Below are positions 3,979-56,844 of a stretch of 59,355 bases of DNA, piece after piece. This DNA is from Planctomycetales bacterium (lineage in GTDB: Bacteria; Planctomycetota; Planctomycetia; Pirellulales; Pirellulaceae): contig JAGQPR010000004.1 of NCBI GenBank assembly GCA_020426625.1, forward strand, positions 1 through 59,355, written 5' to 3'. Numbering within the stretch: position 1 is the stretch's first letter; each line of letters starts with the position of its first letter. The notes below the pieces were generated by a model. The model worked only from the letters and a program-made list of their open reading frames with translations. It was not told the DNA's origin and did no database searches. A program made the position numbers and the translations under genes.

Positions 3979-4563
3979 TTACTCGTACCCGAGCTTCGTC
4001 AGTTCATGGCGAAGCTCGTTCCGGGCGCGGTTGAGTCTCGAACCAACAGTACCTTCAGGAATTCCTAGCGATTCGGCGATCTCGCGGTACGACAAGCCAT
4101 TTTGCTCCTTGAGCAGAAAGACGGCACGTAGTTCGGAATCGAGACGGTTTAATGCCGCCTCAAGTAAACGCGCCTCGTCGCACTTGATTAGCCGATTGTC
4201 GTCGGTAGTTGCCGGTTCCGAGACGAGTGATGCCGTCGACCGCCTCTTCTGTTTTCTCAGATGCTGCAAAGCTTCGTTGGTCGCGAGTCGAAATAGCCAT
4301 GTTTCCAGTTTTGATTGTCCACTGAACTGATTCAGTTTGCGGAACATTTGAAGAAAGACTTGTTGCGTCAAGTCATCCGCATCCTGTCGTCCAACCATTC
4401 GCACCATCAGCCCATAGACGCGACTGCTGCAATGCTCGTAGATCGACTTCATGGCGGAACCATCTCCCGCCACGCACGACGCTACCAAGCGATCCATTGT
4501 ATCGTCAGATGTCAATTCGCTGGCTGGCTGAGTTGATGTGTTCGAATCTTCAGATTGATTCAA
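3979..4563 (-). CDS. ECF-family RNA polymerase sigma factor
   Basis: A 194-residue sigma-70 family protein of the extracytoplasmic-function type. Region 2 is seen at about residues 45-105 (DADDLTQQVFLQMFRKL; TWLFRLATNEALQHLRKQKR). Region 4 is at about 135-190 (LSYREIAESLGIPEGTVGSRL). Region 3 is absent, as usual for ECF factors. No anti-sigma gene is adjacent, which is unusual; the N-terminal 40 residues are Ser/Thr/Asp-rich. It is the only transcription factor found in the window, so it is a natural candidate to read the repeated GTGAAGAA/GCATCTAA elements, but that link is inference. A diverged 3' copy lies at 2016-2102. Confidence 0.92.
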   Translation of the reverse strand: MNQSEDSNTSTQPASELTSDDTMDRLVASCVAGDGSAMKSIYEHCSSRVYGLMVRMVGRQDADDLTQQVFLQMFRKLNQFSGQSKLETWLFRLATNEALQHLRKQKRRSTASLVSEPATTDDNRLIKCDEARLLEAALNRLDSELRAVFLLKEQNGLSYREIAESLGIPEGTVGSRLNRARNELRHELTKLGYE

Positions 4564-5557: not shown

Positions 5558-6160
5558 ATGCTGATGAAACACACTGGAACACTGGCACTCGGCTTGGTGG
5601 TTATTGCCATTTCCACCTCTCTCACCGCGCGACCCGCGTCTGCCCAATCGCGATTGAACGACAAAGTGTCACGAAACAACGGTGCCAGCTTCTTTGCCAA
5701 CGGCCGCGCTTCGCGAGACATTCAACACTCTCGTGACTATTCCCGAAGTATCCAACAGTACACCACACAAGTTCCCACGATTAACCCGGCGGTGACTCAA
5801 GCGGAATCTCAGATGCTTGGCCACCAGATTCAAGGGATTCAACGCGATATGGTCATCATTCGCGAAGAAAACAAAAGCAATCCTCAAGTCGTTGAGCAAG
5901 TGAAGGGAATCGAAACCAAGTTGGCACAAGCGGCAAGCACGCAAAAGATGCTTCATGAAGAGTGCTGCAAAGACTCGCCTGATGGAAAAGTATGCGGCGA
6001 AATGGCTGGAAAAATCACCAGTACACTTGACCAAGTCAGTAAAGACCATGCCAAGTTGCTGAAGACGATGGGGCATGAAGATGCCGCGCACGACCATGCC
6101 GCAATGACGCATGAGCACGACGCGTCGGAAGCTAAAACGCCAACGAAGTCAGCTAAGTAA
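5558..6160 (+). CDS. Secreted protein with CC motif and His-rich tail
   Basis: A 200-residue protein starting at an ATG with AAAGGA six bases upstream. The signal peptide ends around PASAQ. The middle (about 85-130) is helical and charged, with an ECCKDSPDG loop and another Cys soon after (KVCGEMAG). The C-terminus is rich in His/Asp (HEDAAHDHAAMTHEHD), typical of loose metal binding. No family was recognised. It is the first gene after promoter site D and leads the Met-rich gene cluster, so a periplasmic metal-buffering role is likely but unproven. Confidence 0.75.
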   Translation: MLMKHTGTLALGLVVIAISTSLTARPASAQSRLNDKVSRNNGASFFANGRASRDIQHSRDYSRSIQQYTTQVPTINPAVTQAESQMLGHQIQGIQRDMVIIREENKSNPQVVEQVKGIETKLAQAASTQKMLHEECCKDSPDGKVCGEMAGKITSTLDQVSKDHAKLLKTMGHEDAAHDHAAMTHEHDASEAKTPTKSAK

Positions 6161-6280: not shown

Positions 6281-7312
6281 ATGCGCTCACTATCCACCTT
6301 TTGTAAGTCGGCTGCCTTGAGCGTCTTTGTGGCGACAGGAACTTCTGTTTTCCTCAGCCCACTTTCGATAGCGCAGGCACCTACGGATCAACATGTTCAG
6401 CCACTTGCAAATGATGCAACAATCGCCAACAGCGATCTTGCAGCGCAACTTCAGAGCCTGCGCAAGAAAGTTGCGGACCTAGAAGCAATGCTGCAGACGT
6501 CACACCAGCCACAGGACAGCATCAACGCTCCCGATCCATCGGATGCGATGCCCAACAAATCGACGAACGACTCGACTGATTCTTTGTCAAACACTGGCAA
6601 GATGCAAGGAATGCAAATGGGTGACAAAAAGATGGAGATGATGAAAGGCATGGGTGGCATGGGCCAGAGGTCAGATGGCCAATCGATGCCTCCTGGTGGA
6701 ATGGGTAAGCGAATGATGGGGAGCGAGATGGGCGGCATGAAAGGCATGTCTGGAGGATCTGGTGGAATGGGAATGATGTCAGACAGGGGTGGCATGCCTG
6801 GCGGCATGGGCATGGGTGGCCAGGGGATGGGGATGATGAAAGGCATGGGAATGATGGGCCGCAATCCCGCCACGAAATCGTCGATGAGTGGCATGGAGTC
6901 AATGGGCAGCATGAATATGCCGTCTGCATTGCCAGGCTTCGCAGGTGCCTCGCATCTGTATCACATCGGTGAGACGGGCTTCTTCCTCGACCATCCACAG
7001 CACATCGCATTGAGTGATGTCCAACAACTGCAACTCAACAAGATCAAAGAGGCATCGTTGTTGGCAACGGCCACTGCGGAGCGCAAGATCGACGAAGCAG
7101 AACAAGAACTGTGGACACTGACCGCTGAGGCGCAGCCCGATATTACCAAAATCGAGGCGAAAGCCCACGAGATCGCTCAGCTCCAAGTGGCCAATCGAAT
7201 CGCTTTCATTCGATCCGTCGGCAACGCTGCCGAAGTGCTAACCAAAGAGCAACGTCAAACGCTCGTCGGCATGGTTGCACCTGAACCCGAGGACTCCGTG
7301 ACAACCGAGTGA
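6281..7312 (+). CDS. Secreted Met/Gly-rich protein with CpxP/Spy-like C-terminal domain
   Basis: About 343 residues from the ATG at 6281; a TTG two codons earlier is less likely. Signal peptide, then a short coiled coil (LQSLRKKVADLEAML), then a long Met/Gly stretch (about 110-210) with many MGGM and GMGMM units, which could bind Cu(I) through thioethers. The C-terminal 120 residues are helical and charged and contain LSDVQQLQLNKIKE and LTKEQRQTL, like the LTxxQ helices of the CpxP/Spy/CnrX metal-sensor and chaperone group. The neighbouring gene at 7405 shares the coiled coil and Met-rich plan. Likely a periplasmic metal-binding protein; CpxP similarity is a visual call. Confidence 0.75.
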   Translation: MRSLSTFCKSAALSVFVATGTSVFLSPLSIAQAPTDQHVQPLANDATIANSDLAAQLQSLRKKVADLEAMLQTSHQPQDSINAPDPSDAMPNKSTNDSTDSLSNTGKMQGMQMGDKKMEMMKGMGGMGQRSDGQSMPPGGMGKRMMGSEMGGMKGMSGGSGGMGMMSDRGGMPGGMGMGGQGMGMMKGMGMMGRNPATKSSMSGMESMGSMNMPSALPGFAGASHLYHIGETGFFLDHPQHIALSDVQQLQLNKIKEASLLATATAERKIDEAEQELWTLTAEAQPDITKIEAKAHEIAQLQVANRIAFIRSVGNAAEVLTKEQRQTLVGMVAPEPEDSVTTE

Positions 7313-7404
7313 TCGTGAACTCCAGATGTTAGCGGTCCAAGTAAATCATGTTCAACCACCAAACGTCCCAAGCAATCAACCCGTTCAACGAAAGATGAAT
7401 AGCG

Positions 7405-8280
7405 ATGCAAAACTTTAACGTCTTATCGAAGCTACGTCTGTCGATGCTGGTCGTTGCTACGGCGATGGCCAGCGGAACTATTTGGCCAATCGTGGTCACT
7501 GGCCAGGAGTTTGAGCAGAATCTGCACAGCCAGCTTGTGGAACTGCAACAAAAAGTGGCTCAACTCGAAGCTGCTTTGAATCAGAAGTCTGCAAGCGCAA
7601 CAGCAGGCTCCTCGCCACCTGCCACTCAACCGTCTATGCAAAATGGGCAAGGCATGGCTGCTACAGCGCCAGCGGCTCAAGCTGCACCAAACATCAAACC
7701 CGGGTTTCAAAATTGTGTGCAGTGTCATCAAACGCGTCCACCCGGACCGTTGCCGGCAACTCACTTGGTAGGCATCGGGTCTGGATCACAAATGTCGACC
7801 GGAGGAACTGGTAACCAGCAGCCTGCGATGGGCTCGGATTCAGGCGGTGGCATGGGCCAGATGGGAGGCATGTCGGGCGGCTCCGGCGGCATGGGAATGA
7901 TGGGAGGCGAAAAAGGCGGCATGTCCGGCGGCATGGGCGGCATGTCGGGTGGCTCCGGCGGCATGGGGATGATGGGAGGCATGTCCGGCGGTATGGGCAA
8001 AGGCATGGGAATGGGAATGATGGGCGGCGGAATGGGTGGAATGTCGGGTAGCTCTAGCGGCATGAGCGGAATGTCTGACGGCACCGGTGGTTCCTCTGTC
8101 ATGTCCGGAGGCATGGCGTCCATGGGAAATGCCGACAACGCGACAGGCGCTGCGAACTCAGGTTCAATCGACCAACAATTGAAACAGATGCAACAACAAA
8201 TGCAGCAAATGATGCAAATGCAAATGATGCAGATGAAGGTCATGGAAATGCAGATGAAAATGATGGAAATGAAGCAGTGA
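7405..8280 (+). CDS. Secreted Met/Gly-rich protein with one c-type haem motif
   Basis: A 291-residue protein. Signal segment (about 10-32), coiled coil (QLVELQQKVAQLEAAL), then a single CVQCH near residue 103, the attachment site for one c-type haem. Next come about 120 residues of Gly/Met/Ser repeats (MGGMSGGSGGMGMM) and a C-terminal Met/Gln helix in which Met and Gln alternate (QQMMQMQMMQMKVMEMQM). A haem site joined to a probable Cu(I)-binding region suggests metal binding coupled to electron transfer. It stands directly upstream of the cytochrome module, 92 bases after the previous gene. No known family fits the whole protein. Confidence 0.75.
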   Translation: MQNFNVLSKLRLSMLVVATAMASGTIWPIVVTGQEFEQNLHSQLVELQQKVAQLEAALNQKSASATAGSSPPATQPSMQNGQGMAATAPAAQAAPNIKPGFQNCVQCHQTRPPGPLPATHLVGIGSGSQMSTGGTGNQQPAMGSDSGGGMGQMGGMSGGSGGMGMMGGEKGGMSGGMGGMSGGSGGMGMMGGMSGGMGKGMGMGMMGGGMGGMSGSSSGMSGMSDGTGGSSVMSGGMASMGNADNATGAANSGSIDQQLKQMQQQMQQMMQMQMMQMKVMEMQMKMMEMKQ

Positions 8281-8526
8281 GAGTGTTTCTCCACTGCTTA
8301 CGAGCGACTTTTGAACGATGCCATGGCGGGCGATGGTGCCTTGTTCCCGGGCCAGGATGGTGTGGAGGCAGCATGGGAAATAGTTGAGCCAGTTTTGGAT
8401 TTGGCAACGCCCGTCTATGAATACGACGCCGGCACGTGGGGTCCGCCCGAAGCTGAAAGACTTCCTGCGGTCACCTGCGGCTGCTACAGCCTCGTCGAAC
8501 TGCTACCCAACGGGAAACGATCATGA
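8281..8526 (+). pseudogene. zwf: Relic of glucose-6-phosphate dehydrogenase C-terminus
   Basis: Immediately after the stop at 8280 the frame reads [19 protein letters not shown], then EVVEAAW-like [14 protein letters not shown] and [16 protein letters not shown]. This is the conserved C-terminal end of glucose-6-phosphate dehydrogenase (family pattern YERLLxDAMxGDxTLF, EAAWxxVxP, YxAGSWGP). Only about 75 of the usual 480-510 residues remain and there is no start. The last 20 residues do not fit the family. It overlaps the next gene's start by four bases (8523-8526), so it may only serve as a leader. Confidence 0.8.
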
Positions 8527-9443
8527 CCAATGACACGGAACTCAGACCAATGAAAATGAAATCCAACATTGATGGTTCACTTAGAATCGAAACTCACTGG
8601 ACGTCCAGCGTCAAGGTGGGCATCGACACCGACTATCACAGCAGTTCCCGCATCTTTCAGTGGGGCATTTTGGGTTTGCTTGTTGGACTGATATGGGCTC
8701 ATCCAGCCTACGCCCAGGTGTCTGCTGAAGAACATGCCAGCCACCATCCCGATCAAGCAGCAGGTGCCGCGCCCGCGACGGATGCTTCCGCTGGCCCTCC
8801 AGCGAACTCCGGTGCTGGGATGAGCGATGGTGGCATGGGTGCAGGCGGTGGTATGGCTGGCGGTAGTGGTGGTGGCGGCATGGGTGACATGATGAAAGAT
8901 ATGGGCAAGGCTCCACCGTTGGAGCTTTACCCGACATTGATGAACATAACGGATCAAACGCCGGAGCAGCGCACCGAAACTTTGCAAAAAGCCGACGAGC
9001 GGATGCGCGCCGCCGTGACACTTCTTTCCACTGGAATAGATCGCTTGGCGACTGCCGTAGGAACCGACGATTATGCGGCCATGCAAAATGCGACAACCAA
9101 AATGCATGCTGCCTTAGCAGAGTTTGAGAGTGGCGTTGCCACTCAGCGGGCTTTGAAGGAAGGTCAGCCGCCGCACCAAGTCGCACTTCAATGGTTCAAG
9201 AGTGAAATGAGTTTGCAGCCGCCACAAGGAATCCAAGTCAGCAGCGGAATTTGGGGTGCTTCGCCATTCCACTTGTTCTCGATGGTACTGCTAATCTTGT
9301 TCGCGCTGGCGATGATCGCCCTGTACTTCCTTAAGATGCGTCGCGCCGCCGCACTGTTCAGTCGCATTGAAGCCAACAAAGGAGCGCCGCCACCTGGAGC
9401 AGCACCGGCGCTCGCTGGAACGCCACCGCCGTCGAACACATAG
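8523..9443 (+). CDS. Membrane-anchored Gly/Met-rich envelope protein of the electron-transfer cluster
   Basis: A 306-residue protein with a hydrophobic signal at about 46-64, unusually far from the N-terminus; a start at the Met at 8550 is possible. It continues with a His patch (HASHHPD), a Gly/Met-rich stretch, and a helical domain of about 110 residues ([20 protein letters not shown] onward) with conserved-looking Met/Ala helices. A transmembrane helix at about 243-263 and a Pro-rich cytoplasmic tail follow. The reductase gene starts 20 bases downstream, so the two are likely co-transcribed. It may hold metal or the cytochrome partner at the membrane; no family was recognised. Confidence 0.7.
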
Positions 9444-9463
9444 ACTGAACGGGGATCAACTAC

Positions 9464-10576
9464 ATGAGCGAATCAACTATCCTGAAAGACGCACCGCCGG
9501 TGACCGCAAAGTGGAGCGGCTACTTGCGAGTTGGCAGTGTCGTGAACGAAATTGCGAACGTGAAAACCATTCGATTGCTCCCGGAGTCCGGTGAAGGGTT
9601 GCTGCCGTTCACCTTCGTTCCCGGTCAATTCCTCAACGTCGCGTTCTTCATCGGCGGCGCAAGGATGATTCGATCGTACTCCATTTCGTCATCTCCGACG
9701 CATCGCGAATACCTTGATCTGACGATTCGTCGGGAGCCTCGCGGCGCGGTTTCGCGTCACATCGTTGATTTATTGCGAGTCGGCGACTTAGTCGAGGCGG
9801 GCGGTCCGGTTGGCAAATTCACTTTCGATGGCAGCGAAGCGGATAACATCGTTTTGATCTCCGCTGGCGTGGGCGTGACACCCATGCTCAGCATCACACG
9901 GTATCTCACGGAACAAGCTTGGGATGGCGAGATCTTTTACATCTTTTCGTGCAGCTATCCTTCCGAATATATGTTCGCAGAGGAGCTAGTTTCACTTCAG
10001 AAGAAAAATCCAAAGTTGCATATCGCAGTCACAGTCACCAGACCCGAAGGCACCGACTGGAAGGGGCATCGAGGACGCATCAGCAAAGAATTCCTGACTG
10101 AGTCCGTGCCCGACCTAACAGCGAGGCGAATTCATATTTGCGGGCCATCAGGCATGATGGACGCGACCAAGAAACTGCTGGTCGAGTTGGGAGTTCCCGC
10201 AGAACAGATCAAGATAGAAGCGTTTGGAACCCCCAAGCCCACTCCGGCCGCTGCGGGTACAACTGCCAAATCGATGTCACCCGCAAGCGGACCGACGGTC
10301 AACTTTTCCAGCAGCAACAAGTCCTCCAAGACTCATCTCGATATGACCAATGGAGACAGTCCGCCGGAGCAAACCGTGCTGGAATTGTCCGAGGAACTTG
10401 GTATCGGAATCGATTTTTCGTGTCGCATCGGCACCTGTGGCGTCTGCAAGGTGAAGATGACTTCCGGCGAGGTCGACCAAGAAGTGCAAGACTCACTGGA
10501 TGATGATGACAAAGCGAACGGCATCATTCTGGCCTGCCAAGCCAAACCGAGATCTGAAATCACGGTGGAGGCTTGA
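9464..10576 (+). CDS. FAD/NAD(P)H oxidoreductase with C-terminal 2Fe-2S ferredoxin domain
   Basis: A 370-residue cytoplasmic electron-transfer enzyme. The N-terminal FAD domain has the RSYSISSSP motif (RxYS) near residue 70. The NAD(P) domain has SAGVGVTPM near 135 and ICGPSGMMDA near 225. After a Pro/Ala linker, a plant-type ferredoxin domain carries CRIGTCGVC (Cx4CxxC) and a fourth Cys in ILACQAKP. The order FNR then ferredoxin matches HCP reductase and related oxygenase reductases. No oxygenase or hybrid-cluster protein is nearby. Instead the next genes encode a b-type membrane cytochrome and a multihaem cytochrome c, so it probably feeds electrons from NAD(P)H into the membrane. Confidence 0.9.
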   Translation: MSESTILKDAPPVTAKWSGYLRVGSVVNEIANVKTIRLLPESGEGLLPFTFVPGQFLNVAFFIGGARMIRSYSISSSPTHREYLDLTIRREPRGAVSRHIVDLLRVGDLVEAGGPVGKFTFDGSEADNIVLISAGVGVTPMLSITRYLTEQAWDGEIFYIFSCSYPSEYMFAEELVSLQKKNPKLHIAVTVTRPEGTDWKGHRGRISKEFLTESVPDLTARRIHICGPSGMMDATKKLLVELGVPAEQIKIEAFGTPKPTPAAAGTTAKSMSPASGPTVNFSSSNKSSKTHLDMTNGDSPPEQTVLELSEELGIGIDFSCRIGTCGVCKVKMTSGEVDQEVQDSLDDDDKANGIILACQAKPRSEITVEA

Positions 10577-10580
10577 TGAG

Positions 10581-10652
10581 AGTTGGGAGACAAGGAGTTG
10601 GGAGTTGGTGAGGTCCTCACTCCTGCACTCCCCCTCTCCGTGTCTCCCACCC
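10581..10652. repeat. GGGAG-family hairpin repeat
   Basis: A run of GGGAGACAAGGAG/GGGAGTT units faces CTCC-rich units ending in GTGTCTCCC, forming an imperfect inverted repeat between the reductase and cytochrome b genes. Related elements lie at 19659, 20573 and 59256. It could act as an attenuator or be a mobile-style intergenic repeat. Confidence 0.6.
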
Positions 10653-10674
10653 AAAAAGTACAGGTATTGAAAAA

Positions 10675-11421
10675 ATGAAAGAACATGAAAGAACAGTAAT
10701 AGGTGGGGGCTTTCTGCTTCTATTGCTGGGCTGGCTCGGCTTTCTGGTACACAGCTCGCCGCGATTCGCCGGAAGCGCGCTTGGTTCAGCATTCGGCATT
10801 GCGGGTGCAGTTCTGATGCTGTTTCCGCTCGTCTATACGCTCGCAAAACGCATTCCTGCGGTACAGAACCGAACTAAGAAGTACGTCTCGCTGCAGTCGC
10901 TGATGACACTGCATGTTTACACCGGCATCTTGGGGCCGTTGCTAGCGATCATCCATACCGGCCACAAGTACGAAAGTTGGTTAGGGATCACGCTCACCGC
11001 GACGATGTTGTTGGTCGTCGTGAGCGGATTTGTGCTTCGCTACATGCTTCAATACGTCTCCCACGAGATCAAAGACAAACTGTTATTGCTACAGACGGCC
11101 CGGGGTGATCTCGATAGCGCTTGGGGTGTGCTTGAGAATTCGCCGGACGAAGCCAATTCCCTTTCAAAATCGCGGCTTTTAGTGGCCGGTCTTGAATCCG
11201 TAGGCATCGACATATCGACTTCCCGCGAAGCCGCTGCTGATGTCACTCGGCTAGCAGAGTCGGTGGCGGACCTGGAGTATGCAATTCGCACGCATGAGTT
11301 CTTCAAACGCTGGTTCAGCCGCGCCCTGGTGATCCACATCGTCCTCTCGCTCCTGTTTTATCTGCTGCTTGGTTTGCACATTTGGGCAGGGATTTATTTT
11401 GGATTGAGGTGGTTCTCATGA
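10675..11421 (+). CDS. Four-helix b-type cytochrome-like membrane protein
   Basis: A 248-residue integral membrane protein. Hydrophobic helices lie at about 8-26, 38-56, 77-97, 105-122 and 220-245. Candidate haem-b ligands are His residues in LMTLHVYTG, IIHTGHK, ALVIHIV and LGLHIWAG, placed as in cytochrome b561 and ferric-reductase-like proteins. A soluble helical segment (about 130-205) separates helices. The gene sits between a flavin reductase and a multihaem cytochrome c, and its stop overlaps the next start (ATGA at 11418), so translation is probably coupled. It would carry electrons across the inner membrane; haem number is inferred. Confidence 0.75.
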   Translation: MKEHERTVIGGGFLLLLLGWLGFLVHSSPRFAGSALGSAFGIAGAVLMLFPLVYTLAKRIPAVQNRTKKYVSLQSLMTLHVYTGILGPLLAIIHTGHKYESWLGITLTATMLLVVVSGFVLRYMLQYVSHEIKDKLLLLQTARGDLDSAWGVLENSPDEANSLSKSRLLVAGLESVGIDISTSREAAADVTRLAESVADLEYAIRTHEFFKRWFSRALVIHIVLSLLFYLLLGLHIWAGIYFGLRWFS

Positions 11422-12239
11422 GCATGAAAAAAGCGACCTTGATCGCGTTAACTCTGTTCGCGGTGTTGTTTGCAGCATTTTATTTTTTGGGTAGTCATGC
11501 TGGTGAGAATCCGTCTGGAATCATGAGTGCAACGGCTTGGCAGCGCATGGCCAGTCCGGGAGCGTTATCCGAAGCGCACGCCTTTTTGGAACACGATTGC
11601 GCCGCCTGTCATACCTCAGTGAAAGGCGTTGAGGCCAACAACTGTATCGCCTGCCACGCAAACGAGCAGCGTTTACTAACGCGACAGCCGACGGCGTTTC
11701 ATGCCAACGTGGGAAGCTGTCGCCAGTGTCACCTGGAGCATCGAGGCATCGACCGGCATCCCAGCGGCATGGACCACTTGGCACTTGCCAACATCGGACT
11801 GCGTCAACTCGATTCCGAACCATTGTCAAACGGTGTCAACGCCAATGTGAAAAAGGATCTGTTCGATTGGATCAAACAGCACCAACCGGCGAGTCAGGGT
11901 TTGGAAGGCCATTCAAGTTTCACCCCCAAAGAAGCGGTGCTGAATTGTGTGACCTGCCATGCCACCAAGGACATTCACATCAAGCTGTTCGGCCAGGATT
12001 GTGCGCAGTGTCACACGACGTCGAAATGGACCATTCCCGAATACCGTCACCCGCCGCCGAGTTCAAAGGATTGCGCCCAATGCCATCAAGCGCCGCCAAG
12101 TCACTACATGATGCACTTCAAGATGATCTCAGCCAAGGTCGCGCGTCAGCCGAGCGCCAAAGTCAATCAGTGTTATGAGTGTCACCAAACGACTTCATGG
12201 AATGATATCCAAGGAGTCGGTAGGTACAAGCATCACTGA
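11418..12239 (+). CDS. Seven-haem c-type cytochrome, membrane-anchored
   Basis: 273 residues from the ATG that overlaps the upstream stop. An N-terminal hydrophobic helix (about 6-24) should anchor it facing the periplasm. Seven CxxCH haem sites are present: CAACH, CIACH, CRQCH, CVTCH, CAQCH twice, and CYECH. The spacing falls into a group of three, a gap of about 80 residues, and a group of four, like NrfB/NapC-type and cytochrome c7 relatives. Many extra His residues could be distal ligands or bind metal (SHYMMHFKM). It is the expected electron acceptor for the cytochrome b at 10675 and could hand electrons to a periplasmic substrate such as Cu(II) or Fe(III); the substrate is inference. 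Confidence 0.92.
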   Translation: MSMKKATLIALTLFAVLFAAFYFLGSHAGENPSGIMSATAWQRMASPGALSEAHAFLEHDCAACHTSVKGVEANNCIACHANEQRLLTRQPTAFHANVGSCRQCHLEHRGIDRHPSGMDHLALANIGLRQLDSEPLSNGVNANVKKDLFDWIKQHQPASQGLEGHSSFTPKEAVLNCVTCHATKDIHIKLFGQDCAQCHTTSKWTIPEYRHPPPSSKDCAQCHQAPPSHYMMHFKMISAKVARQPSAKVNQCYECHQTTSWNDIQGVGRYKHH

Positions 12240-19935: not shown

Positions 19936-20565
19936 ATGAGAATGTTACGATTTTTGACTTTGGCTGTAGTGGCAGTAGCTGTAATTGCTAGCGGTTTCGA
20001 CGCAGCTACTCTCGTCGCTCAAGAGAAGCACGAGCACGCCGCTAGTCACGACCATGAGGCCATGAAAAAAGCCGAGCAGAAAATCACTGACGCGTTGAAA
20101 TCTCTCTCCCCTGAGGATCAAAAACTAGCTGCAACGCAGCGTTTCTGTCCGGTTATGACCTATGATCGATTGGGCGCAATGGGCACACCGCTGAAGGTGA
20201 TGATCGAAGGTAAGCCTGTTTTCTTATGCTGCAAGGCTTGCGTTGAAGACGCTCAGAAGGACGGTGCAGCGACTGTCAAAACGGTCGAGAAACTACGTGA
20301 CTCAACGGCGACGCTTGCCAAGTTACCGATGGACGAACGCATGGCAGTTGAGGCACAAAAGTACTGCGCTGTTGCCAACACTAGTTTCTTGGGTTCAATG
20401 GGGGCACCGATCAAGTTAGTGCTTGACGGCAAACCGGTTTACCTGTGCTGTGGTGGCTGCACCAAGAAGGCACAAGCCAACCCAGCCGCAACATTGGCCA
20501 AGGTCGAAGAGCTGAAGAAAGCTGGCACGCTTGAAGGTCATGATCACGCCGCACACAAGCATTAA
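19936..20565 (+). CDS. Secreted His-rich protein with duplicated CC-type metal-binding domain
   Basis: 209 residues; AGAAGGA precedes the ATG. The signal peptide ends near VAQ; His-rich ends are seen at both termini (HEHAASHDHE; GHDHAAHKH). Two domains of about 60 residues repeat: the first has RFCPVM, LGAMGTPLKVMIEGKPVFLC and CKAC; the second has KYCAVA, LGSMGAPIKLVLDGKPVYLC and CGGC. Each has one Cys followed about 35 residues later by a CCxxC cluster, like TRASH/YHS-type metal domains. A periplasmic soft-metal binder is likely. It is followed by a terminator, so it is probably transcribed alone. Confidence 0.8.
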   Translation: MRMLRFLTLAVVAVAVIASGFDAATLVAQEKHEHAASHDHEAMKKAEQKITDALKSLSPEDQKLAATQRFCPVMTYDRLGAMGTPLKVMIEGKPVFLCCKACVEDAQKDGAATVKTVEKLRDSTATLAKLPMDERMAVEAQKYCAVANTSFLGSMGAPIKLVLDGKPVYLCCGGCTKKAQANPAATLAKVEELKKAGTLEGHDHAAHKH

Positions 20566-48131: not shown

Positions 48132-50315
48132 CTAACGGGAGTTGTGCGTTGCGAGTCCCGCGTATTCCAAAACAACGATGCTGCGTGGGCTGACTCGGTA
48201 GGCACTTGCCTGAAGTGGGACTCGTTTGCCTGGGCCTGCAATGTCAAGCGGGCTGGGGAGTGACGTGTCTATCGCGCGGAGCCAACCATCCGCTGCGCCC
48301 GTGTGCAGATTGAATGTTTGTTGTGCGCTAGAACCGTTAATCATCACGTACAAATCGCGTCCGCTGGGCGAATCGGCACGCAGGTGATAAGCGAGAAGTC
48401 GGGACTCCGCAGACAGGTTGACTTCGGGCAGCTCTGAACCAAACCAACGAATGTCGTCGCGCCAAAAGGTCGAACGTCCAAGGGATGGATGCGACTTGCG
48501 AAACGCGATCATGCGTTTGAAGAAGCGAAAGACTTCTTGATTCTGCTCCAATCGACGCCAGTCCAACCAACTCGTTTCGTTGTCTTGGTTGAATGGGTTG
48601 TTGTTGCCCCCTTGGGTCTGCAGGAATTCGTCGCCCATGCGGAACATGGGAGTTCCGGCCGAAAGCATCAGTAAGCAACAAAAGTTCTTGACCTGCCGCT
48701 TGCGTAGATCCAACACTTCCTGAGGAGCATCTTGGTCGCCTTCCCAGCCGCTATTGCAACTGAACTCGTTGGGTCCGTCGCGATTATCCTGCCCATTCGC
48801 CGCGTTGTGTTTTTCACTATACGACACAAGGTCAGCCATCGTAAAACCGTCATGCGACGAAAGGTAATTCACGCTTTGAAAGGGCCGGAAGGCGTGGAAC
48901 ACGTCATCTGGAAACAGGTCACTGCTCCCATAGATTCTCGTCATTAATTCGGGAATCTGCCCGCGGTCACCACGCACGAACCTCTGAAGACTGTCTCGAA
49001 AGCGTCCATTCCACTGCATCCAAGTGCGCCCGGGAAAGGCGGCTCCCAGTTGGTACAGGCCAGACGCATCCCACGGTTCAGCAATCAGACGCACATGTGC
49101 CAATTCAGGGTCACTGGCAATTTGATCAAATAGCGGCGGTTGGCTCAAATCAACCTTGCCATCCGATGTTCGCGAAAACACGGACGCCAGGTCGAAGCGA
49201 AAACCATCCACGTGCATTTCCTTAGCCCAATAGCGCAGACTGTCCAAGATAAGCCGCCGGACAGCTGGATTGGAAGTGTCGAGGGTATTGCCCGTTCCGC
49301 TGAAGTTGGCGTAAGGCGATTCGCGGTTGCCAGTTTCAATGTAGTAGGTAGCACTATCAATTCCTCGGTAGCTGTAAGTTGGTCCTTGATGGTCACCTTC
49401 ACAGGTATGGTTGTAGACAACATCGAGAATCACTTCGATTCCAGCAGCATGCAGCTCGCGAACCATTTCGCGAAATTGGCTATGCTGCTCGCAGGAGGAT
49501 TGATCTTTGGAGTAAGCGTGGTGAGGCGCGAAGAAGCTCAGCGGCATATACCCCCAGTAGTTCCCATCGGCCGGATCAAACTGAAATACCGGCATCAATT
49601 CAACTGCCGTAACACCAAGCTCTTTCAGGTAGGGGAGTTTTTGGACGATGCCCGCGAAGGTCCCTCGATCGCAGTCAGCCAAATCAGAGGTGGGGTGTCT
49701 CGTGAAACCGCGCACATGCATTTCGTAGATAACCAAATCTGAACCGTGCCGAATACGTTGCTCATCTCTCCAGTCAAAGGGGCAGCGACAGACGTCCAGC
49801 CGTCCAAGAGGCGCCCGACCGGCGTTGGAGCCAGATGATCTCGCAGCTTCTCGACTGAAGCTCTCAGGAAAGAAAATGCTTCGTGAGTAGGGATCGAGCA
49901 GCACTTTTTTTGGGTCGAAAGCATGCCAAGGCAGGGCCGCGCCATCAACAGGCCCGTCAACTTGATAGGCGTAGTATTCAGCGTCACCCGCTGCGCGCAT
50001 TGGGACACGACAATGCCAGATCGGTCCCGATTTGTTCTTCAGCGGATCAAAGGTCACAGATAGGTGCGGAACGCGCAGCTCGTCTTTCAGATACAACTGC
50101 AGAGTAACTTTCGATGCATTACCGCCATAAAGGGCAAAGTTGTAAGCCTGTTCGTGTTCTAACCACGTGACGCCAAGCGGTCGTGGTGTGCCGTCATTCT
50201 TCTCCCAGTTTGGGACTCTTGTTGGCCGAACCGCCGCAGTGTGAGTGATATCGGTCCCGCAGTGACGACAATGAGACTGAATCGATTTCGGCAAGTGAGA
50301 TTTCCTCTGGGGCAA
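48132..50315 (-). CDS. glgX: Glycogen debranching enzyme, GlgX/isoamylase type
   Basis: 727 residues. An N-terminal extension carries CRHCGTDI. A carbohydrate-binding beta domain follows (GVTWLEHEQAYNFALYG), then the GH13 catalytic barrel with its four conserved regions: VILDVVYNHT, DGFRFDLASV (about 368, nucleophile Asp), LIAEPWDA (about 411, acid Glu) and NYLSSHDGFT. Removes alpha-1,6 branches from glycogen trimmed by phosphorylase. It follows the phosphorylase gene by nine bases on the same strand. It is convergent with the metal-ATPase gene and marks the island's edge. Confidence 0.93.
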   Translation of the reverse strand: MPQRKSHLPKSIQSHCRHCGTDITHTAAVRPTRVPNWEKNDGTPRPLGVTWLEHEQAYNFALYGGNASKVTLQLYLKDELRVPHLSVTFDPLKNKSGPIWHCRVPMRAAGDAEYYAYQVDGPVDGAALPWHAFDPKKVLLDPYSRSIFFPESFSREAARSSGSNAGRAPLGRLDVCRCPFDWRDEQRIRHGSDLVIYEMHVRGFTRHPTSDLADCDRGTFAGIVQKLPYLKELGVTAVELMPVFQFDPADGNYWGYMPLSFFAPHHAYSKDQSSCEQHSQFREMVRELHAAGIEVILDVVYNHTCEGDHQGPTYSYRGIDSATYYIETGNRESPYANFSGTGNTLDTSNPAVRRLILDSLRYWAKEMHVDGFRFDLASVFSRTSDGKVDLSQPPLFDQIASDPELAHVRLIAEPWDASGLYQLGAAFPGRTWMQWNGRFRDSLQRFVRGDRGQIPELMTRIYGSSDLFPDDVFHAFRPFQSVNYLSSHDGFTMADLVSYSEKHNAANGQDNRDGPNEFSCNSGWEGDQDAPQEVLDLRKRQVKNFCCLLMLSAGTPMFRMGDEFLQTQGGNNNPFNQDNETSWLDWRRLEQNQEVFRFFKRMIAFRKSHPSLGRSTFWRDDIRWFGSELPEVNLSAESRLLAYHLRADSPSGRDLYVMINGSSAQQTFNLHTGAADGWLRAIDTSLPSPLDIAGPGKRVPLQASAYRVSPRSIVVLEYAGLATHNSR

Positions 50316-50324
50316 TGGTCCGAT

Positions 50325-52076
50325 TTACGCCTCGTAGTAAGCTTTTAGCACGTATTGCTGGACCATTCGTTGCGTATTGAAATACGATCCGTTAAGCGCA
50401 ATGGCATGGGACATGATCCTCCGCCATTCGTCAGGTTTACGGTAGTACAGCGGTAAGACCGTCCGTTCAAGTGCCTCGTATAGTGCAGACGCATCGTTCG
50501 TGAATCGGTCGCTCTCCGAGGAATCCGCAGGCGTAGAAGCGCCAAAAGCCCAGCCCGTGACCCCTTCCACACAACCCTCGATCCACCATCCATCGAGAAT
50601 GCTGAGACTTGGAACTCCGTTGAGCGCTGCTTTCATCCCACTAGTACCGGACGCTTCCAGCGGCGGTTGCGGCGAATTGAGCCATACGTCGACTCCTGCA
50701 ACGATCAGTCGAGCGAGTTCCCAATCGTAGTTTGCAAGATAAACCAGTCTAACTTCTGGCGTGAGCTTATTTTGGCTACGTATGATCTGCTGGATAATTT
50801 GTTTTCCACCTTCGTCACGAGGGTGTGACTTGCCCGCGAAGACAATCTGTATGGGACCAGTCTGTGCAGCGATACTTTTTAAACGCTCTGGATCGCTTAT
50901 TAACAGGTTCGCCCGTTTGTACGCTGTTGCACGACGTGCGAAACCGATCGTGATGGTCTCGGAATCGAACTGAAGGTTCTGCCGCGCATTGATTTCGTCG
51001 ATTAGTCGTAGTTTAGCGGTTTGATGAGCGTTCCAGACCTCGCTTGCGGGGATCGCCAAAACACCACGCAGGCTGGCGCTATCTTCACGCCAGCCTGTCA
51101 AGTAACGATCAAACAATGCAGCAAATGCCGGTGCAGTCCAAGTTGGAACGTGAACGCCGTTCGTGATGTGGTCTATGTCGTAGTGATGATTCGCGTCCTT
51201 GGGTACCAGCATGTGGCGTGAAACTTCACCATGTTTCTTGGCAACACCATTGACGTAGTGGCTCAGGTTCAATGCGAGGTACGTCATGTTCAATTCGCCC
51301 GCACAGCAGAATACCTCGTGCATTTCAAAGATATCGGATCGACCAAGCACTTGCTCGACGAGATCAAAGTCAAAACGATCGTGACCAGCCGGAACCGGAG
51401 TGTGCGTCGTAAACACACACTGACGACGAACCGCCTGCACGTCTTCACCATTGAACGTATTGCGCCCGAGAGACTTTGCTCGCTCATCCAACAATTCCAA
51501 CCCAAGCAAAGCCGCATGGCCTTCGTTCATGTGAAACTGGACGAGTTTGTCAAGCTGAAGTGATCTAAGCATGCGAACGCCGCCAATTCCCAAAACGACC
51601 TCTTGGCAAAGTCGATGGCGTTGGTCACCGCCGTAGAGTTGCTGCGTCAGCGCTCGGTCAGCGGTCGAGTTGACATGCAAGTCCGTGTCCAACAGGAGGA
51701 CGGGGATGACATGTCCACCACAGCCAACGACGTCAAACCTCCACCCACGAATATAAAGATTGCGTCCCTCAATGCAAACCTGGACACGCGAAGGCAATTC
51801 GCGGCAATAGTCTTCAACATGCCATTCGACGATTGACTCTTGTTGCCAGCCATCTTGATCAATCGTTTGTGAAAGATAACCTTGCCGATGCAACAGCGTG
51901 ACGGCGATCATTTGAACACCCAAGTCGGCGGCCGCCCTCAGCGTGTCACCAGCCAACACACCTAAACCGCCACTGTAGGTCGGCATCGCCGGATCGAGTG
52001 CAATCTCCATCGAGAAATAGGCAACGGTTTCCGAAGCGGACAGTGATCCGTTGGCTTCAATCTTGCTGGTTGTCAT
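50325..52076 (-). CDS. glgP: Alpha-glucan phosphorylase, short form
   Basis: 583 residues from the ATG at 52076; a GTG two codons earlier is possible. The N-terminus has VAYFSMEIALDPAMPTYSGG, GLGVLAGDTL, typical of the short phosphorylase subgroup (about 550-850 residues, no long regulatory part). The PLP site is seen in EASGTSGMKAALNG (about 472). Releases glucose-1-phosphate from alpha-1,4-glucans. It is in an operon with glgX and overlaps the BON gene upstream by 20 bases. Confidence 0.9.
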   Translation of the reverse strand: MTTSKIEANGSLSASETVAYFSMEIALDPAMPTYSGGLGVLAGDTLRAAADLGVQMIAVTLLHRQGYLSQTIDQDGWQQESIVEWHVEDYCRELPSRVQVCIEGRNLYIRGWRFDVVGCGGHVIPVLLLDTDLHVNSTADRALTQQLYGGDQRHRLCQEVVLGIGGVRMLRSLQLDKLVQFHMNEGHAALLGLELLDERAKSLGRNTFNGEDVQAVRRQCVFTTHTPVPAGHDRFDFDLVEQVLGRSDIFEMHEVFCCAGELNMTYLALNLSHYVNGVAKKHGEVSRHMLVPKDANHHYDIDHITNGVHVPTWTAPAFAALFDRYLTGWREDSASLRGVLAIPASEVWNAHQTAKLRLIDEINARQNLQFDSETITIGFARRATAYKRANLLISDPERLKSIAAQTGPIQIVFAGKSHPRDEGGKQIIQQIIRSQNKLTPEVRLVYLANYDWELARLIVAGVDVWLNSPQPPLEASGTSGMKAALNGVPSLSILDGWWIEGCVEGVTGWAFGASTPADSSESDRFTNDASALYEALERTVLPLYYRKPDEWRRIMSHAIALNGSYFNTQRMVQQYVLKAYYEA

Positions 52077-52518
52077 GCTCACTCTTTGTTGTGGTGCGAT
52101 AGGACACAGTTAGCTCGTTGACGATTCGCTCGACTCCATCAATCCTTCGTGCTAACTCCTGCGCGATCTGCTTATAGTAATAGCTGGAAACCGAGCCGCG
52201 AATGACAAGGACGCCATCCTCGAACCGCCCCTCGATGCCTCTGAGAACCGCATAGCCGCTGGACGACCAACTGCGTCGAACACTGGCGATAACGCAGCAA
52301 GAGCAAAGTGGCTCGTGTAACGATTGACGCTCAACGTCTGCCAACCCGTTCTCCGCGATTCCTTCAAATTCACCAGCCGCGACGGAGTGTTGGCCACGAA
52401 AGTTTTTGATCTGCCCCGCTTGATCGTCAATCTCGGGCTGAGATTGAGAGCAAGACGCCTGTATCTGGCGACTGCTCAAGACCATTTCATGCGACTCGAA
52501 TGATATTGCTGTCTTCAT
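52057..52518 (-). CDS. BON-domain protein
   Basis: 153 residues from the ATG at 52518. The C-terminal 60 residues are a BON domain (RFEDGVLVIRGSVSSYYYKQ, GVERIVNELTVSY), a small lipid- or membrane-associated fold. A CSCC pair lies near residue 92. No signal peptide is obvious, and the first 85 residues are low in recognisable features. The 3' end overlaps the phosphorylase start, so translation may be coupled. Function unknown. Confidence 0.75.
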   Translation of the reverse strand: MKTAISFESHEMVLSSRQIQASCSQSQPEIDDQAGQIKNFRGQHSVAAGEFEGIAENGLADVERQSLHEPLCSCCVIASVRRSWSSSGYAVLRGIEGRFEDGVLVIRGSVSSYYYKQIAQELARRIDGVERIVNELTVSYRTTTKSEHDNQQD

Positions 52519-52610
52519 ACGACACCCCCGACCTGTGGGTTTCTGAATCGAAAGATCGCTAGGAGACCTCCCATTCCTCCGGAAATCAGAATTGACCACG
52601 ACAGTTGCAG

Positions 52611-52847
52611 TCATTTGTTGCGTTCGAGCGTGTACGAGCTGCCGCAGCAACTGCGTTTGACGGTGCAGCAGTAATCGCGTTTCGCGCAGCATGTCGGCTG
52701 AGCAAATTCAGTCGATAATTCGACATCTTGTGTTTGTAAACCTGCCGTTGGAGGAAAGGTCGGGGCGACATCTGCAGCCAAAGCGAATGCCGCCACGCCG
52801 AGAAGACCAAGAGCCAACGAAACAGCAGCTACCGATTTCAATAACAT
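52611..52847 (-). CDS. Small secreted Cys-rich protein
   Basis: 78 residues. The signal peptide ends ALAAD. The mature part finishes with a Cys cluster, TCCAKRDYCCTVKRSCCGS: three CC pairs in 20 residues. No family recognised. Promoter-like site I lies 82 bases upstream on the same strand, linking it to the small secreted proteins at 3368, 5558 and 19936. Confidence 0.7.
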   Translation of the reverse strand: MLLKSVAAVSLALGLLGVAAFALAADVAPTFPPTAGLQTQDVELSTEFAQPTCCAKRDYCCTVKRSCCGSSYTLERNK

Positions 52848-52928
52848 GACTTCGACCTCTCGTTGTCAGGGATTGGGATAAAGACGGCTCTGGCAAACTT
52901 GTCCGTCTTGGTTCGTCTCTACGAGTGA

Positions 52929-52958
52929 TACGATGCGTCGAGCAACTTGCTTCTTCAC
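52929..52958 (-). promoter_or_regulatory. ECF-type promoter-like element (site I, minus strand)
   Basis: On the minus strand GTGAAGAA (52958-52951), 14 bases, then GCATCGTA (52936-52929). The first half is perfect, the second has six of eight bases. It faces the Cys-rich peptide gene starting at 52847 and is the only copy on this strand. Confidence 0.5.
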
Positions 52959-53085
52959 GAAAATCTCGCTGATCATTCCGATTTTGGATTGTTTTTCCTG
53001 TATTTTGGTTTTTTGGGAAGAAGTGGCGGAACAAAGGCATCAAAATCCGAAGTCCGACGCATTGTCGGGCGTTTTCGATTCTCCG

Positions 53086-53247
53086 ATGGAGCCGCAAACG
53101 GAGCAACGCATGTTTACTCGCGACGAACTGATCGCGCTCTATCGACGCCGGGCAAAACGGTACGACTTGACCGCGAACGTCACTATCGAAGAATACTTTC
53201 TCGGCTTCACGTACATTGCAAGTGGCGTAAGAGTCGGGGAAAAAGAC
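53086..53247 (+). pseudogene. N-terminal relic of a class I methyltransferase
   Basis: From the ATG at 53086 the frame reads MFTRDELIALYRRRAKRYD, then LTAN and EYFLGF. This resembles the N-terminal helix of SAM-dependent methyltransferases of the UbiE-like group (LYRRRAxxYDxxAN). After about 40 residues the match ends and the frame runs antisense into the ATPase subunit A gene, with no SAM-binding motif. It is a fragment cut off at the V-ATPase operon's end. Confidence 0.6.
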
Positions 53248-55041
53248 TCATTCCCCCATTTCTCGATCAGTCAACATCGCACGGATACTGGCAAGGAACT
53301 TCCCGTAGTCCGATGAATCAGTTGCAGAGTAATTCAAATTGCGAAAGGCACTGGTCAGCCGGACAAAGAAAGTGCGAGCTTCTTCTTTGTCGTCGAACAT
53401 GAATTCTCGTTCTGTTACGTCTCTGATCAATCTAAGAATTGCCTGCTGTCGATCCAATGGTGTCGCCACGTCGACTGGGTCGAAGGCGTCTTGCTGCAAG
53501 TAAACCGTGTCTAGAAATTGTGCTTTCTGATAGATGATGAAGTCACTGAGCGAAATGCCTTCCTCGCCGGTAACTTGCATCATCTGATAGATCGCGTCGG
53601 CTTGCTGAAGTAAGTCGAGCAATGTCTCTACGTTTGCCGTCCAGCCGGAACCAAGCTCGCGATCGAGGAAGTCGCGCAACTGCTCTCGATAGCGTGACCA
53701 AGAAAGAAGTGGGTCGATGGCTGGATAGAATCGTTTATAGGCGCGGTCGTAGGACAGACCAAGGAACGTTTTCACGGTGCCCAACGTCGATTGCGTTACT
53801 GGTTCCTCAAAGTTTCCACCCGCAGGAGAGACTGTTCCGATCATCGTTAAACTGCCGGTGGAACCATCGCTGGTCCTGAGTACTCCCGCTCTTTCATAGA
53901 CACCTTTAATGGCTGAGTCGAGATAGGCAGGAAAGGCTTCTTCGCCGGGAATTTCTTCCAAGCGGCCTGACGTTTCTCGCATCGCCTGTGCCCACCGCGA
54001 AGTGGAGTCGGCTAAAAGCAAAACGTCGAGTCCCATCTGACGATAGTATTCGCCCAGTGTAATACCCATGTAAATGGAAGCTTCGCGGGCAGCCACCGGC
54101 ATCGACGATGTGTTGCAAATGATGACGGTGCGATCCATCAGCGAACCACCACCTCCCTGGTCTTGCGCTTTGGAAAATTCATTGATCGTATCGACGACTT
54201 CTCCCGCACGTTCGCCGCACGCAACAACGATCACAACATCGACGGCTGAATTGCGGGCGATCAACGTTTGCAAAACCGTCTTGCCGGCACCAAATGGACC
54301 TGGGATACAGGCGGTGCCTCCACGAGCGATTGGAAAGAAAGTGTCGATCGTGCGAATGGTTGTGACCAGAGGTTCGGTCGGATACTTTCGCTCCACCAAA
54401 TGTCGCATCAACAAGTCTGCTGGCAATGGGACGCGGACTGGCCATTCCTGACGCATGGTCAGGGGACGTTCGTCTTGTCCATCAAGGATGCGGGCAATCG
54501 GTTCGTCGATAACAAAGCTGCCTCCCTGAATCCACGTCAATTCGGCTTTGCCGACCAAATCAAACGGCACCATTATCTTGTGGTCGATGCCGCGTTCCTG
54601 GACGGTTCCCAGGACATCACCAGCGCGCAGACGATCTCCCGTACGGCGGATTGGTACGAACGACCATTTGTGCTGACGATCAAGTGCGTCCGCGTAATGG
54701 CCACGCTTGAGAAAGAATCCGTCGCGGTTGGCAAGCGTTTCCAGTGGGTTCTGTAATCCATCAAAGACGGTACCTAACAGGCCGGGGCCGAGCGAGGCGG
54801 ACAACATACGATGCATCAGTTCCACATGGTCGCCAACCTTCACGCCTTCGGTATCCTCGAAAACTTGTAGGTCGGCTTCATTTCCGTACACCCGGAGAAC
54901 CTCTGACTTCAATCGCTTATCACCAAGCAGAACATAAGCCACCTCGTTCTTGACGATGTTCCCGTCAGGTACTTCGATCGAGACAATATTGCCGTTGACC
55001 GCCGTTACCGTCGAATCGATCGTTGTTACTTGTCGGGTCAC
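53248..55041 (-). CDS. atpA: V/A-type ATPase subunit A (catalytic)
   Basis: 597 residues, the usual length. The nucleotide site reads PGPFGAGKTVLQTL (P-loop GPFGAGKT, about residue 248). GERAGEVVDTINEFSKAQ and LADSTSRWAQAMRETSGRLE are catalytic-subunit signatures. The non-homologous insert lies around residues 115-190. Hydrolyses or makes ATP in the soluble head together with subunit B. Start overlaps the DUF2764 gene end by four bases. No subunit B gene follows; the next sequence is the methyltransferase relic. Confidence 0.95.
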   Translation of the reverse strand: MTRQVTTIDSTVTAVNGNIVSIEVPDGNIVKNEVAYVLLGDKRLKSEVLRVYGNEADLQVFEDTEGVKVGDHVELMHRMLSASLGPGLLGTVFDGLQNPLETLANRDGFFLKRGHYADALDRQHKWSFVPIRRTGDRLRAGDVLGTVQERGIDHKIMVPFDLVGKAELTWIQGGSFVIDEPIARILDGQDERPLTMRQEWPVRVPLPADLLMRHLVERKYPTEPLVTTIRTIDTFFPIARGGTACIPGPFGAGKTVLQTLIARNSAVDVVIVVACGERAGEVVDTINEFSKAQDQGGGGSLMDRTVIICNTSSMPVAAREASIYMGITLGEYYRQMGLDVLLLADSTSRWAQAMRETSGRLEEIPGEEAFPAYLDSAIKGVYERAGVLRTSDGSTGSLTMIGTVSPAGGNFEEPVTQSTLGTVKTFLGLSYDRAYKRFYPAIDPLLSWSRYREQLRDFLDRELGSGWTANVETLLDLLQQADAIYQMMQVTGEEGISLSDFIIYQKAQFLDTVYLQQDAFDPVDVATPLDRQQAILRLIRDVTEREFMFDDKEEARTFFVRLTSAFRNLNYSATDSSDYGKFLASIRAMLTDREMGE

Positions 55042-55703
55042 GCTACGTCTCCATCAGATTCCAGTGTCTGTGCCAGAAGGCGGTCGAAACGCTGCCGTCC
55101 AGGGGCAGCATCGAGTCGTGTCCAGCGATCGACGATTTCCCAACGCGCCAAGTAAAGCAAAATCGTTTCAAACGAGAAATGAAAATTGTCTGCGAGTTTC
55201 ACCCAGCGATTCCAGGTCGCAGTCAGAAGTTCACGTTCGACATCCAGAGGTTGGTTGGATTCCAAATGTTTGCTTACTCGCGGAATCCAAGTGTGTTCGC
55301 GAGCCAATCGAAAGTCGGGGTGCTGCCAGTTCTTTTGAATATGACTGACGTACTGTCCGACAGCGGATGGTGGTTCGAGGCTCAAACGACGACGACGCAG
55401 CGCACAGGTGACGGTGCGGATGTCCATGCGATGATTGATAATATCGCGGACAAGCCGATTTGCGATCGAATTCATCAACCGCGTATATTCGCGTTGCACA
55501 TCTTCGTCGGTGCGTTCGGATTCTTGCCGGTCCCAATGGAGGAATCCCTGCACCTGTTCGACAACACTCTTGTCCCTTTCTCCCAACATTTTCAAACGCT
55601 GCTCCAAACGAATCCGTGAGATTGGAACTTCGTCGACATCGAACCAGCGCGGCATGTACGGCAGACTGGCGACGAGTGAGTAGTAATTTGTGGATGTCGT
55701 CAC
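55038..55703 (-). CDS. DUF2764 protein of the V-type ATPase operon
   Basis: 221 residues, starting YYSLVASLPYMPRW after four residues, the usual opening of DUF2764. Helical and Arg/Glu-rich. In Chlamydia and spirochaete operons the DUF2764 gene stands between subunits E and A, as here; it probably takes the place of subunit C (stalk connector). It overlaps both neighbours by four bases, so translation is coupled. Confidence 0.85.
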   Translation of the reverse strand: MTTSTNYYSLVASLPYMPRWFDVDEVPISRIRLEQRLKMLGERDKSVVEQVQGFLHWDRQESERTDEDVQREYTRLMNSIANRLVRDIINHRMDIRTVTCALRRRRLSLEPPSAVGQYVSHIQKNWQHPDFRLAREHTWIPRVSKHLESNQPLDVERELLTATWNRWVKLADNFHFSFETILLYLARWEIVDRWTRLDAAPGRQRFDRLLAQTLESDGDVA

Positions 55704-56368
55704 TGAATGATTCCCTCCATGATCGCCCGAAATCGTGGAACTAAATGCCGTAACAGCAAGTCTGCGATGGCCTGGTCGGTCAGCTCAATCTCGATATCCT
55801 CCTCCTGCAAGCGGATACGAATGCCGGCTACCTGATCGTCTCGAGTTCCGATTTCGAGACCTTCTCGTAGCATGTCTTTCGTAACGGTGGCGACAAAATG
55901 GCTGAGCGTACCCTCTTTCACTTCCTCTGGATCACGCCGCAATTGTTCCAAGCCGACAACATCCTCGGGCAGTAGAAGTTTGGCAAGCTGGCCAACGGGG
56001 GGCGCTGAGCGTCTACTGATTTCGAGAATCATCTGCTTTAAGAAATCGCTATCATCCAGTTCTTTTGTCACCAAGCGACGAACTCGGTCGGCGAACTGCT
56101 CTACCATTTCCGATTTGAGCCGAAGCATTGCGTCACGGACGGCCAATTGCACCGCCTCTTCGCCAGCTCGCTTCGTTTGACTGGCTTCTTCGCGTGCTTT
56201 CTGCAATATCGCATCAGCCTCGCGTCTTGCATCGTCCAAACGCTGTTCGGCACGCAAGCGAGTTTGCTCCATCAGCTCGTCAGCCTGAGCCTTGCCGGCC
56301 TCCACTCCCTGCTCGCGCAAGCGACCGATCAAATCCTCTACGCCGGAAGATTCCTTCGAATTGGCCAT
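55700..56368 (-). CDS. atpE: V/A-type ATPase subunit E (peripheral stalk)
   Basis: 222 residues. The N-terminal 110 residues form a charged coiled coil (RLREQGVEAGKAQADELMEQ; READAILQKAREEASQ). The C-terminal part is globular and mixed. This is the subunit E plan, which holds the catalytic head fixed. It lies 12 bases after the K gene. Confidence 0.85.
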   Translation of the reverse strand: MANSKESSGVEDLIGRLREQGVEAGKAQADELMEQTRLRAEQRLDDARREADAILQKAREEASQTKRAGEEAVQLAVRDAMLRLKSEMVEQFADRVRRLVTKELDDSDFLKQMILEISRRSAPPVGQLAKLLLPEDVVGLEQLRRDPEEVKEGTLSHFVATVTKDMLREGLEIGTRDDQVAGIRIRLQEEDIEIELTDQAIADLLLRHLVPRFRAIMEGIIQ

Positions 56369-56380
56369 CTGTTGATCTCC

Positions 56381-56842: not shown

Positions 56843-56844
56843 GA

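Follow-up and report, generated by a model that had tools for sequence, protein, structure and literature searches.

A widespread Met-tract protein with a CnrX/Spy-like domain, its electron-transfer genes, and a rare relative with a putative haem site in a planctomycete

We found that a Met-tract protein with a CnrX/Spy-like domain, encoded together with the genes for an electron-transfer chain, is widespread in bacteria. This core protein combines a known metal-sensing and chaperone fold with a Met tract, and in a few members of its family the same chain also has a putative haem site. The analysis concerns two neighboring genes in a stretch of 59,355 nucleotides (the window; contig JAGQPR010000004.1, assembly GCA_020426625.1) from a Planctomycetales bacterium of the family Pirellulaceae. 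Genes and their products are named here by the first position of the gene in the window: 6281 encodes the core protein, and 7405, on the same strand, encodes the relative with the putative haem site (Table 1).

Table 1. Features of the window, and the two fused relatives of 7405 found at other loci (positions in those loci).
Feature	Position	Strand	Evidence
ECF sigma factor and possible regulator; close relatives have one near the core gene	3979..4563	-	Pfam, locus survey
Putatively secreted Met-tract protein, family core, with CnrX/CpxP/Spy-like C-terminal domain	6281..7312	+	ORF, Pfam, orthologues, fold
Met/Gly tract of 6281, aa 107-213	6599..6919	+	Family scoring, sequence composition
CnrX/CpxP/Spy-like domain of 6281 (aa 214-343), four conserved His, LTKEQ motif	6920..7309	+	Alignment, PDB profile, model
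Putatively secreted protein: coiled coil, single CXXCH, Met/Gly tract, Met-rich helix	7405..8280	+	ORF; L081 and L105 N-termini homologous
Coiled coil of 7405, aa 35-65, homologous to the 6281-family N-terminus	7507..7599	+	BLAST, model, profile
CVQCH, putative haem c site, aa 104-108	7714..7728	+	Cassette extends to H120-L121, base 7767
Met/Gly tract of 7405, tandem-repetitive DNA (72-, 30-, 21-bp units)	7831..8124	+	Composition, repeat analysis
Met-rich C-terminal helix of 7405, aa 252-290, pLDDT ~80-96	8158..8274	+	Model; 15-, 21-bp repeats
3'-end remnant of zwf (G6PD), marker of the recombination seam	8296..8522	+	Pfam G6PD_C 3.6e-15
Gly/Met-rich protein with a membrane anchor; in many relatives one chain with the reductase	8523..9443	+	ORF, relatives
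FAD/NAD/2Fe-2S reductase	9464..10576	+	Pfam, profile, tree
DUF4405 cytochrome b-type membrane protein	10675..11421	+	Pfam
Heptahaem c3/c7-like cytochrome c, seven CXXCH	11391..12239	+	Pfam, relatives
Fused haem/CnrX-like proteins, both in planctomycete loci	L081:1958-3247; L105:8128-9411		

The 6281 product has 343 amino acids (ATG start at 6281, with a TTG at 6275 as a possible alternative upstream), a coiled coil at approximately aa 52-75, 36 Met residues, and a single Cys that lies within the signal peptide. Judged by eye, both the 6281 and the 7405 products have N-termini that resemble signal peptides. The C-terminal domain of 6281 is a member of the CnrX/CpxP/Spy/ZraP superfamily, as indicated by profile matches, an LTxxQ motif and a helical-hairpin fold. 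The match to the Pfam family Metal_resist (PF13801; E 1.7e-6, 28.7 bits) is slightly below the cut-off of 29.2, which is exceeded by orthologues at loci L034 (34.3) and L081 (40.0), and the match to LTXXQ (PF07813) has a value of 0.0012. A profile search of the PDB with the domain detected Spy (E 0.0012) and, weakly, ZraP and CpxP. The LTxxQ motif is LTKEQ at aa 320-324; among 74 sequences its L and Q are invariant, and T is found in at least 90%. A further mark of the domain is the signature LPGFPGASHLYHIGxTGFFLDHPxHI, whose four His residues (aa 225, 228, 238 and 241) are kept in 71-74 of the 74 sequences.

The structure model of 6281, for which two rows from plasmid records were left out of the alignment, has a mean pLDDT of 80. 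Its best match in the PDB was CnrX (Z 9.8 over 98 residues, 2.3 A), followed by ZraP (Z 9.2), CpxP (8.5), Spy (8.4) and NccX (8.3). Z scores of 8-10 are moderate for helical hairpins and, taken alone, not strong; we kept the assignment because CnrX, ZraP, CpxP and Spy rank first, in accord with the sequence evidence. An earlier note on this DNA, made from the letters of the sequence, had called the domain CpxP/Spy-like. Pfam, the PDB profile search and the model agree on that likeness, but by structure comparison the fold is as close to CnrX as to CpxP or Spy. In common with CnrX/NccX, ZraP, CpxP and Spy, 6281 has a putatively periplasmic helical-hairpin domain with LTxxQ, matched by both profile and fold. 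It differs from them in its N-terminal coiled coil, its long Met/Gly tract, its own four-His signature (GASHLYHIGxTGFFLDHPxHI) and the electron-transfer chain that accompanies it.

A search for the 6281 family, based on an alignment of the first relatives, gave 126 confirmed loci in data with one genome per species, and 80 of them were kept. These span Planctomycetota, Verrucomicrobiota, Nitrospirota, Hydrogenedentota, Pseudomonadota and other phyla. We scored the Met tract in the 92 sequences with a recognizable domain start (approximately 83 distinct ones without repeats, from several phyla), and all 92 carry one. The region ahead of the domain has a median of 17% Met, compared with 1.5% within the domain. 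Orthologues lacking the tract had been named in the earlier note as one observation that would refute its reading; because every scored sequence carries one, this objection falls away. The genome that contains the window has no second copy of the core gene or of the heptahaem cytochrome gene.

The earlier note placed the gene pair at the head of an electron-transfer cluster. That position is real, and it is conserved: the core protein, the reductase, the cytochrome b and the heptahaem cytochrome occur together in 56 of the 80 loci, and several of the others are short contigs. Another protein of the DUF4405 family has been demonstrated to be a haem-b membrane cytochrome similar to MsrQ (PMC11334425). 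Plasmids of Variovorax, Salinimonas and Bradyrhizobium bear the cluster, whole or in part, and the Variovorax and Salinimonas copies lie near copper or metal genes. The island around the cluster in the window has a multicopper oxidase, CusA-type RND pumps and metal P-type ATPases. We found no paper on this gene set in the open-licence literature that was searched.

There were further observations on the genes around the pair. Most relatives have the counterparts of 8523 and 9464 as a single chain, which joins a periplasmic Met/His region to the cytosolic reductase. The gene at 5558-6160 encodes a secreted product without a Pfam match that has a CCKDSPDGKVC segment, and it neighbors the core gene in Pirellulaceae (58-70% identity). 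The secreted product of 19936-20565 has two similar units with paired Cys motifs (FCPV...FLCCKAC and YCAV...YLCCGGC) and looks like a doubled metal-binding domain. At 48132-59255, glycogen debranching/phosphorylase-like genes and a V-type ATPase operon adjoin the metal island. Because a gene with a glycogen-debranching domain stands beside the same electron-transfer genes on the Bradyrhizobium BTAi1 plasmid, the glycogen genes, the metal island and the electron-transfer genes may travel together.

The 7405 product has 291 amino acids and 46 Met residues; both proteins of the pair have the long Met/Gly tracts described in the earlier note. Only two Cys are present, and both are in the CVQCH motif; shuffling the residues of the protein 20,000 times gave no CXXCH. 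The single site reported from the sequence is confirmed. The model of the whole protein is poor (mean pLDDT 53), with a C-terminal helix of 39 residues that is predicted with good confidence. The note had also held that the two proteins share a coiled coil. They are too diverged for a direct BLASTP comparison to give a significant match (E 0.95), but a profile of the 7405-type N-terminus detects the N-termini of the 6281 family, and the coiled coil of 7405 used alone matches the family with a best E of 5e-5. We therefore assign the N-terminus of 7405 to the 6281 family. The profile aligns with the family only as far as the stretch that precedes the cassette around CVQCH. From its sequence, 7405 can be described as a 6281-family N-terminus with the cassette placed between coiled coil and Met tract, and with the CnrX-like domain missing.

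A CXXCH motif behind an apparent signal peptide, conserved in relatives (L081 and L105), is the mark of a c-type cytochrome, and 7405 has it. The cassette had no match to a known cytochrome c or haem family in Pfam or the PDB. H108 would be the proximal haem ligand, and H120 or a Met of the tract could be the distal one. The genome carries c-haem maturation genes of the Cytochrom_C_asm type; ResB was looked for and not found.

The haem segment of 7405 (38 residues) was compared with 8155 ORFs and, besides itself, significantly matched only two proteins, those of L081 and L105 (E 1.4e-5 and 2.9e-5). These proteins, which were previously undescribed, consist of a signal peptide, coiled coil, cassette, Met tract, second coiled coil, second Met tract and 6281-type domain, in that order. 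Their cassette reads DCLRCHQT(I/V)PSGPLPPSHL, giving with 7405 the consensus CxxCHQTxPxGPLPxxHL; C104, C107, H108, Q109, T110, P112, G114-P117, H120 and L121 are invariant in all three. As in 7405, the cassette follows a coiled coil and precedes a Met tract, in the same operon. The difference is that L081 and L105 encode one polypeptide with the second coiled coil and the CnrX-like domain, whereas the window has two genes, with the haem gene second. We considered a simple splitting of one fused gene into 6281 and 7405 and rejected it: in the window the parts come in the opposite order, and 6281 does not share the affinities of the genes downstream.

The cassette is restricted to two of the 92 family members and 7405. 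The putative haem variant appears to be a rare yet conserved elaboration of the 6281 family, and a rare accessory of the cluster instead of a regular part, a point absent from the earlier note. The note had called a haem site coupled with a Met tract in one chain unusual: the combination is rare, and since L081 and L105 carry the same cassette it is conserved, with the haem itself putative. No free-standing orthologue of 7405 was found in approximately 800 distinct planctomycete genomes (overlapping samples of 98, 392, 397 and 45 genomes) by searches with the full-length protein and its N-terminus, nor was a second free-standing copy found in 35 cluster-holding genomes, the GTDB contig set or plasmids. 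A scan of genome contigs with 7405 gave zero relatives, and tblastn of plasmids with the fused haem N-terminus gave no match. Full-length matches within the genus were low-complexity MGGM stretches of unrelated large proteins, and weak N-terminal matches at L032, L033, L140 and L141 were to unrelated or interrupted frames; none was accepted as a relative.

The operon is a mosaic, a point missing from the earlier note: 6281 is native to Pirellulaceae, and 8523-12239 came from a cluster of the Verrucomicrobia type. In the domain tree, 6281 clusters with the sequences from L034 and R. europaea (L035; support 100/90 and 96/89) in a Pirellulaceae group (100/99). In the reductase tree, 9464 is the sister of the Verrucomicrobia sequence from L090 (98/99) inside a group of 24 rows (100/100) that excludes the Pirellulaceae reductases. 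Gene 5558, upstream, and the genes downstream show identities that are consistent with both trees. Approximately 16 bases past the stop codon of 7405, and in the same frame, begins the remnant of zwf. An intact zwf lies immediately upstream of the 8523 homologue in L090, L065 and L096, with 61-65% identity to the remnant. Because the remnant follows 7405 and intact zwf precedes the homologues of 8523, the seam is at approximately 8281-8296, directly after 7405, which lies to its left, between the native gene and the imported block. Tandem repeats (72-, 21- and 15-bp) in the DNA of the 7405 tract and helix point to expansion by slippage.

We tentatively favor, with a probability of roughly 0.42, a periplasmic metal system, most likely for copper, that would be fed with cytoplasmic electrons and in which 7405 would act as a putative haem relay. 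The long Met/Gly tract of 6281, the conserved core, would bind Cu(I). Electrons would pass from NAD(P)H through the FAD/2Fe-2S reductase and the DUF4405 cytochrome b in the membrane to the heptahaem cytochrome c in the periplasm. 7405, an accessory protein related to the N-terminus of 6281, would have one c-type haem in its cassette and pass electrons between the heptahaem cytochrome and the metal in the Met tracts. Copper would thereby stay in the Cu(I) state, to be sequestered and handed to the efflux pumps of this island. The sequence data establish the architecture of the proteins, the homology of both halves, the conserved Met tract, the conserved company of the chain and the mosaic origin of the operon, whereas we infer the export of the proteins, haem attachment, copper as the metal, the direction of electron flow and contact between the parts. 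The observation in the earlier note is confirmed, and its interpretation is borne out in part. The constancy of the Met tract, the occurrence of the full gene set across phyla and on metal-resistance plasmids, the conservation of the cassette at two further loci, where it has the same operon context and shares a chain with a Met tract, the copper and metal genes of the island, the c-haem maturation genes, and the haem-b nature of DUF4405 cytochromes (PMC11334425) argue for this reading. Against it stand the rarity of the cassette and its lack of a known haem family, the position of 7405 at a recombination seam, the failure to find ResB, and a metal identity that rests on no computation. Because the cassette is so restricted, the system would function without it elsewhere.

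A more specific proposal is that of a dedicated trans-envelope system for copper reduction and storage, in which NAD(P)H electrons would reach the CnrX/Spy-fold Met-tract proteins via the cytochrome b and the heptahaem cytochrome c, and the haem in a Met-tract chain (7405, or the L081 and L105 fusions) would determine whether the bound metal is present as Cu(II) or Cu(I). We regard this as rather doubtful. Should electrons indeed arrive at the Met tracts, the handling of copper in the periplasm would gain a dedicated reductive branch, beside the known oxidation of Cu(I) by multicopper oxidases. The broader result is that the Met-tract CnrX/Spy-like protein is widespread together with its electron chain.

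Because the seam directly follows it, 7405 could be a truncated leftover: an L081-type fused gene, cut back to its N-terminal part by loss of the C-terminal domain in the recombination, now without function and still subject to repeat slippage. Its stop codon just ahead of a truncated zwf at the junction of native and imported DNA, its repetitive tract and C-terminus, and the lack of an orthologue in relatives are all consistent with this. We consider it unlikely, given the intact frame of 291 codons with a coding-like composition of codon positions, the conservation of cassette residues past CXXCH and the confidently predicted helix. It is a distinctly poor prospect that both proteins are Cu(I) sponges or chaperones in which CXXCH binds copper or forms a disulfide, free of haem, while the electron chain serves some other function of the operon. 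Met-rich periplasmic copper proteins are well known (CopM, PMC4335983; CopI, PMC13308877), and a neighbor of the Variovorax cluster annotated as a four-helix copper protein has a CXXCH (CLDCH), a caution that this motif does not always bind haem. Yet the only two Cys of 7405 are exactly spaced and followed by a conserved motif with a second invariant His, c-haem maturation genes are present, and genes of a haem chain adjoin. The pair resembles CopM, CopI and CopK-like proteins in being secreted, Met-rich and located in metal-resistance islands; in the pair, the tract is joined to a CnrX/Spy-like domain or a CXXCH cassette. Identity with Csp, the Cys-rich four-helix copper storage protein, was rejected, there being only two Cys in 7405 and one in 6281.

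Two other readings assign the chain or the core protein a different task. The chain might repair or protect oxidized Met, its electrons keeping both the tracts and the Spy-like chaperone in a reduced state, in the way that MsrPQ of E. coli reduces oxidized Met of Spy (PMC12503329). The Met tracts would be good targets for oxidants, and DUF4405 cytochromes are similar to MsrQ (PMC11334425). As with MsrPQ and Spy, a membrane cytochrome b would deliver electrons to the periplasm, with a Spy-fold protein adjoining. The cluster differs from MsrPQ in its dedicated FAD/2Fe-2S reductase and heptahaem cytochrome c; no MsrP-type reductase was recognized within it, and the context of the island is metal resistance, both of which make this reading improbable. 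It is very improbable that 6281 is a CnrX-type metal sensor for the nearby ECF sigma factor, with the Met tract as its metal-binding part. CnrX is the best structural match, a distance of 1.7 kb separates 6281 from the sigma gene, which is upstream on the opposite strand and similarly placed in the close relatives L035-L038, and some relatives have an anti-sigma gene nearby as well. On the other side, sigma genes are found at 15 of the 80 loci and anti-sigma genes at 7, no anti-sigma gene was recognized near 6281, and to our knowledge CnrX has no Met tract. The end of an ORF at 2016-2354 on the minus strand (SKLNRARKELRQELTKLGWN) resembles the end of the intact ECF sigma factor, and this ORF is apparently a decayed copy of the sigma gene.
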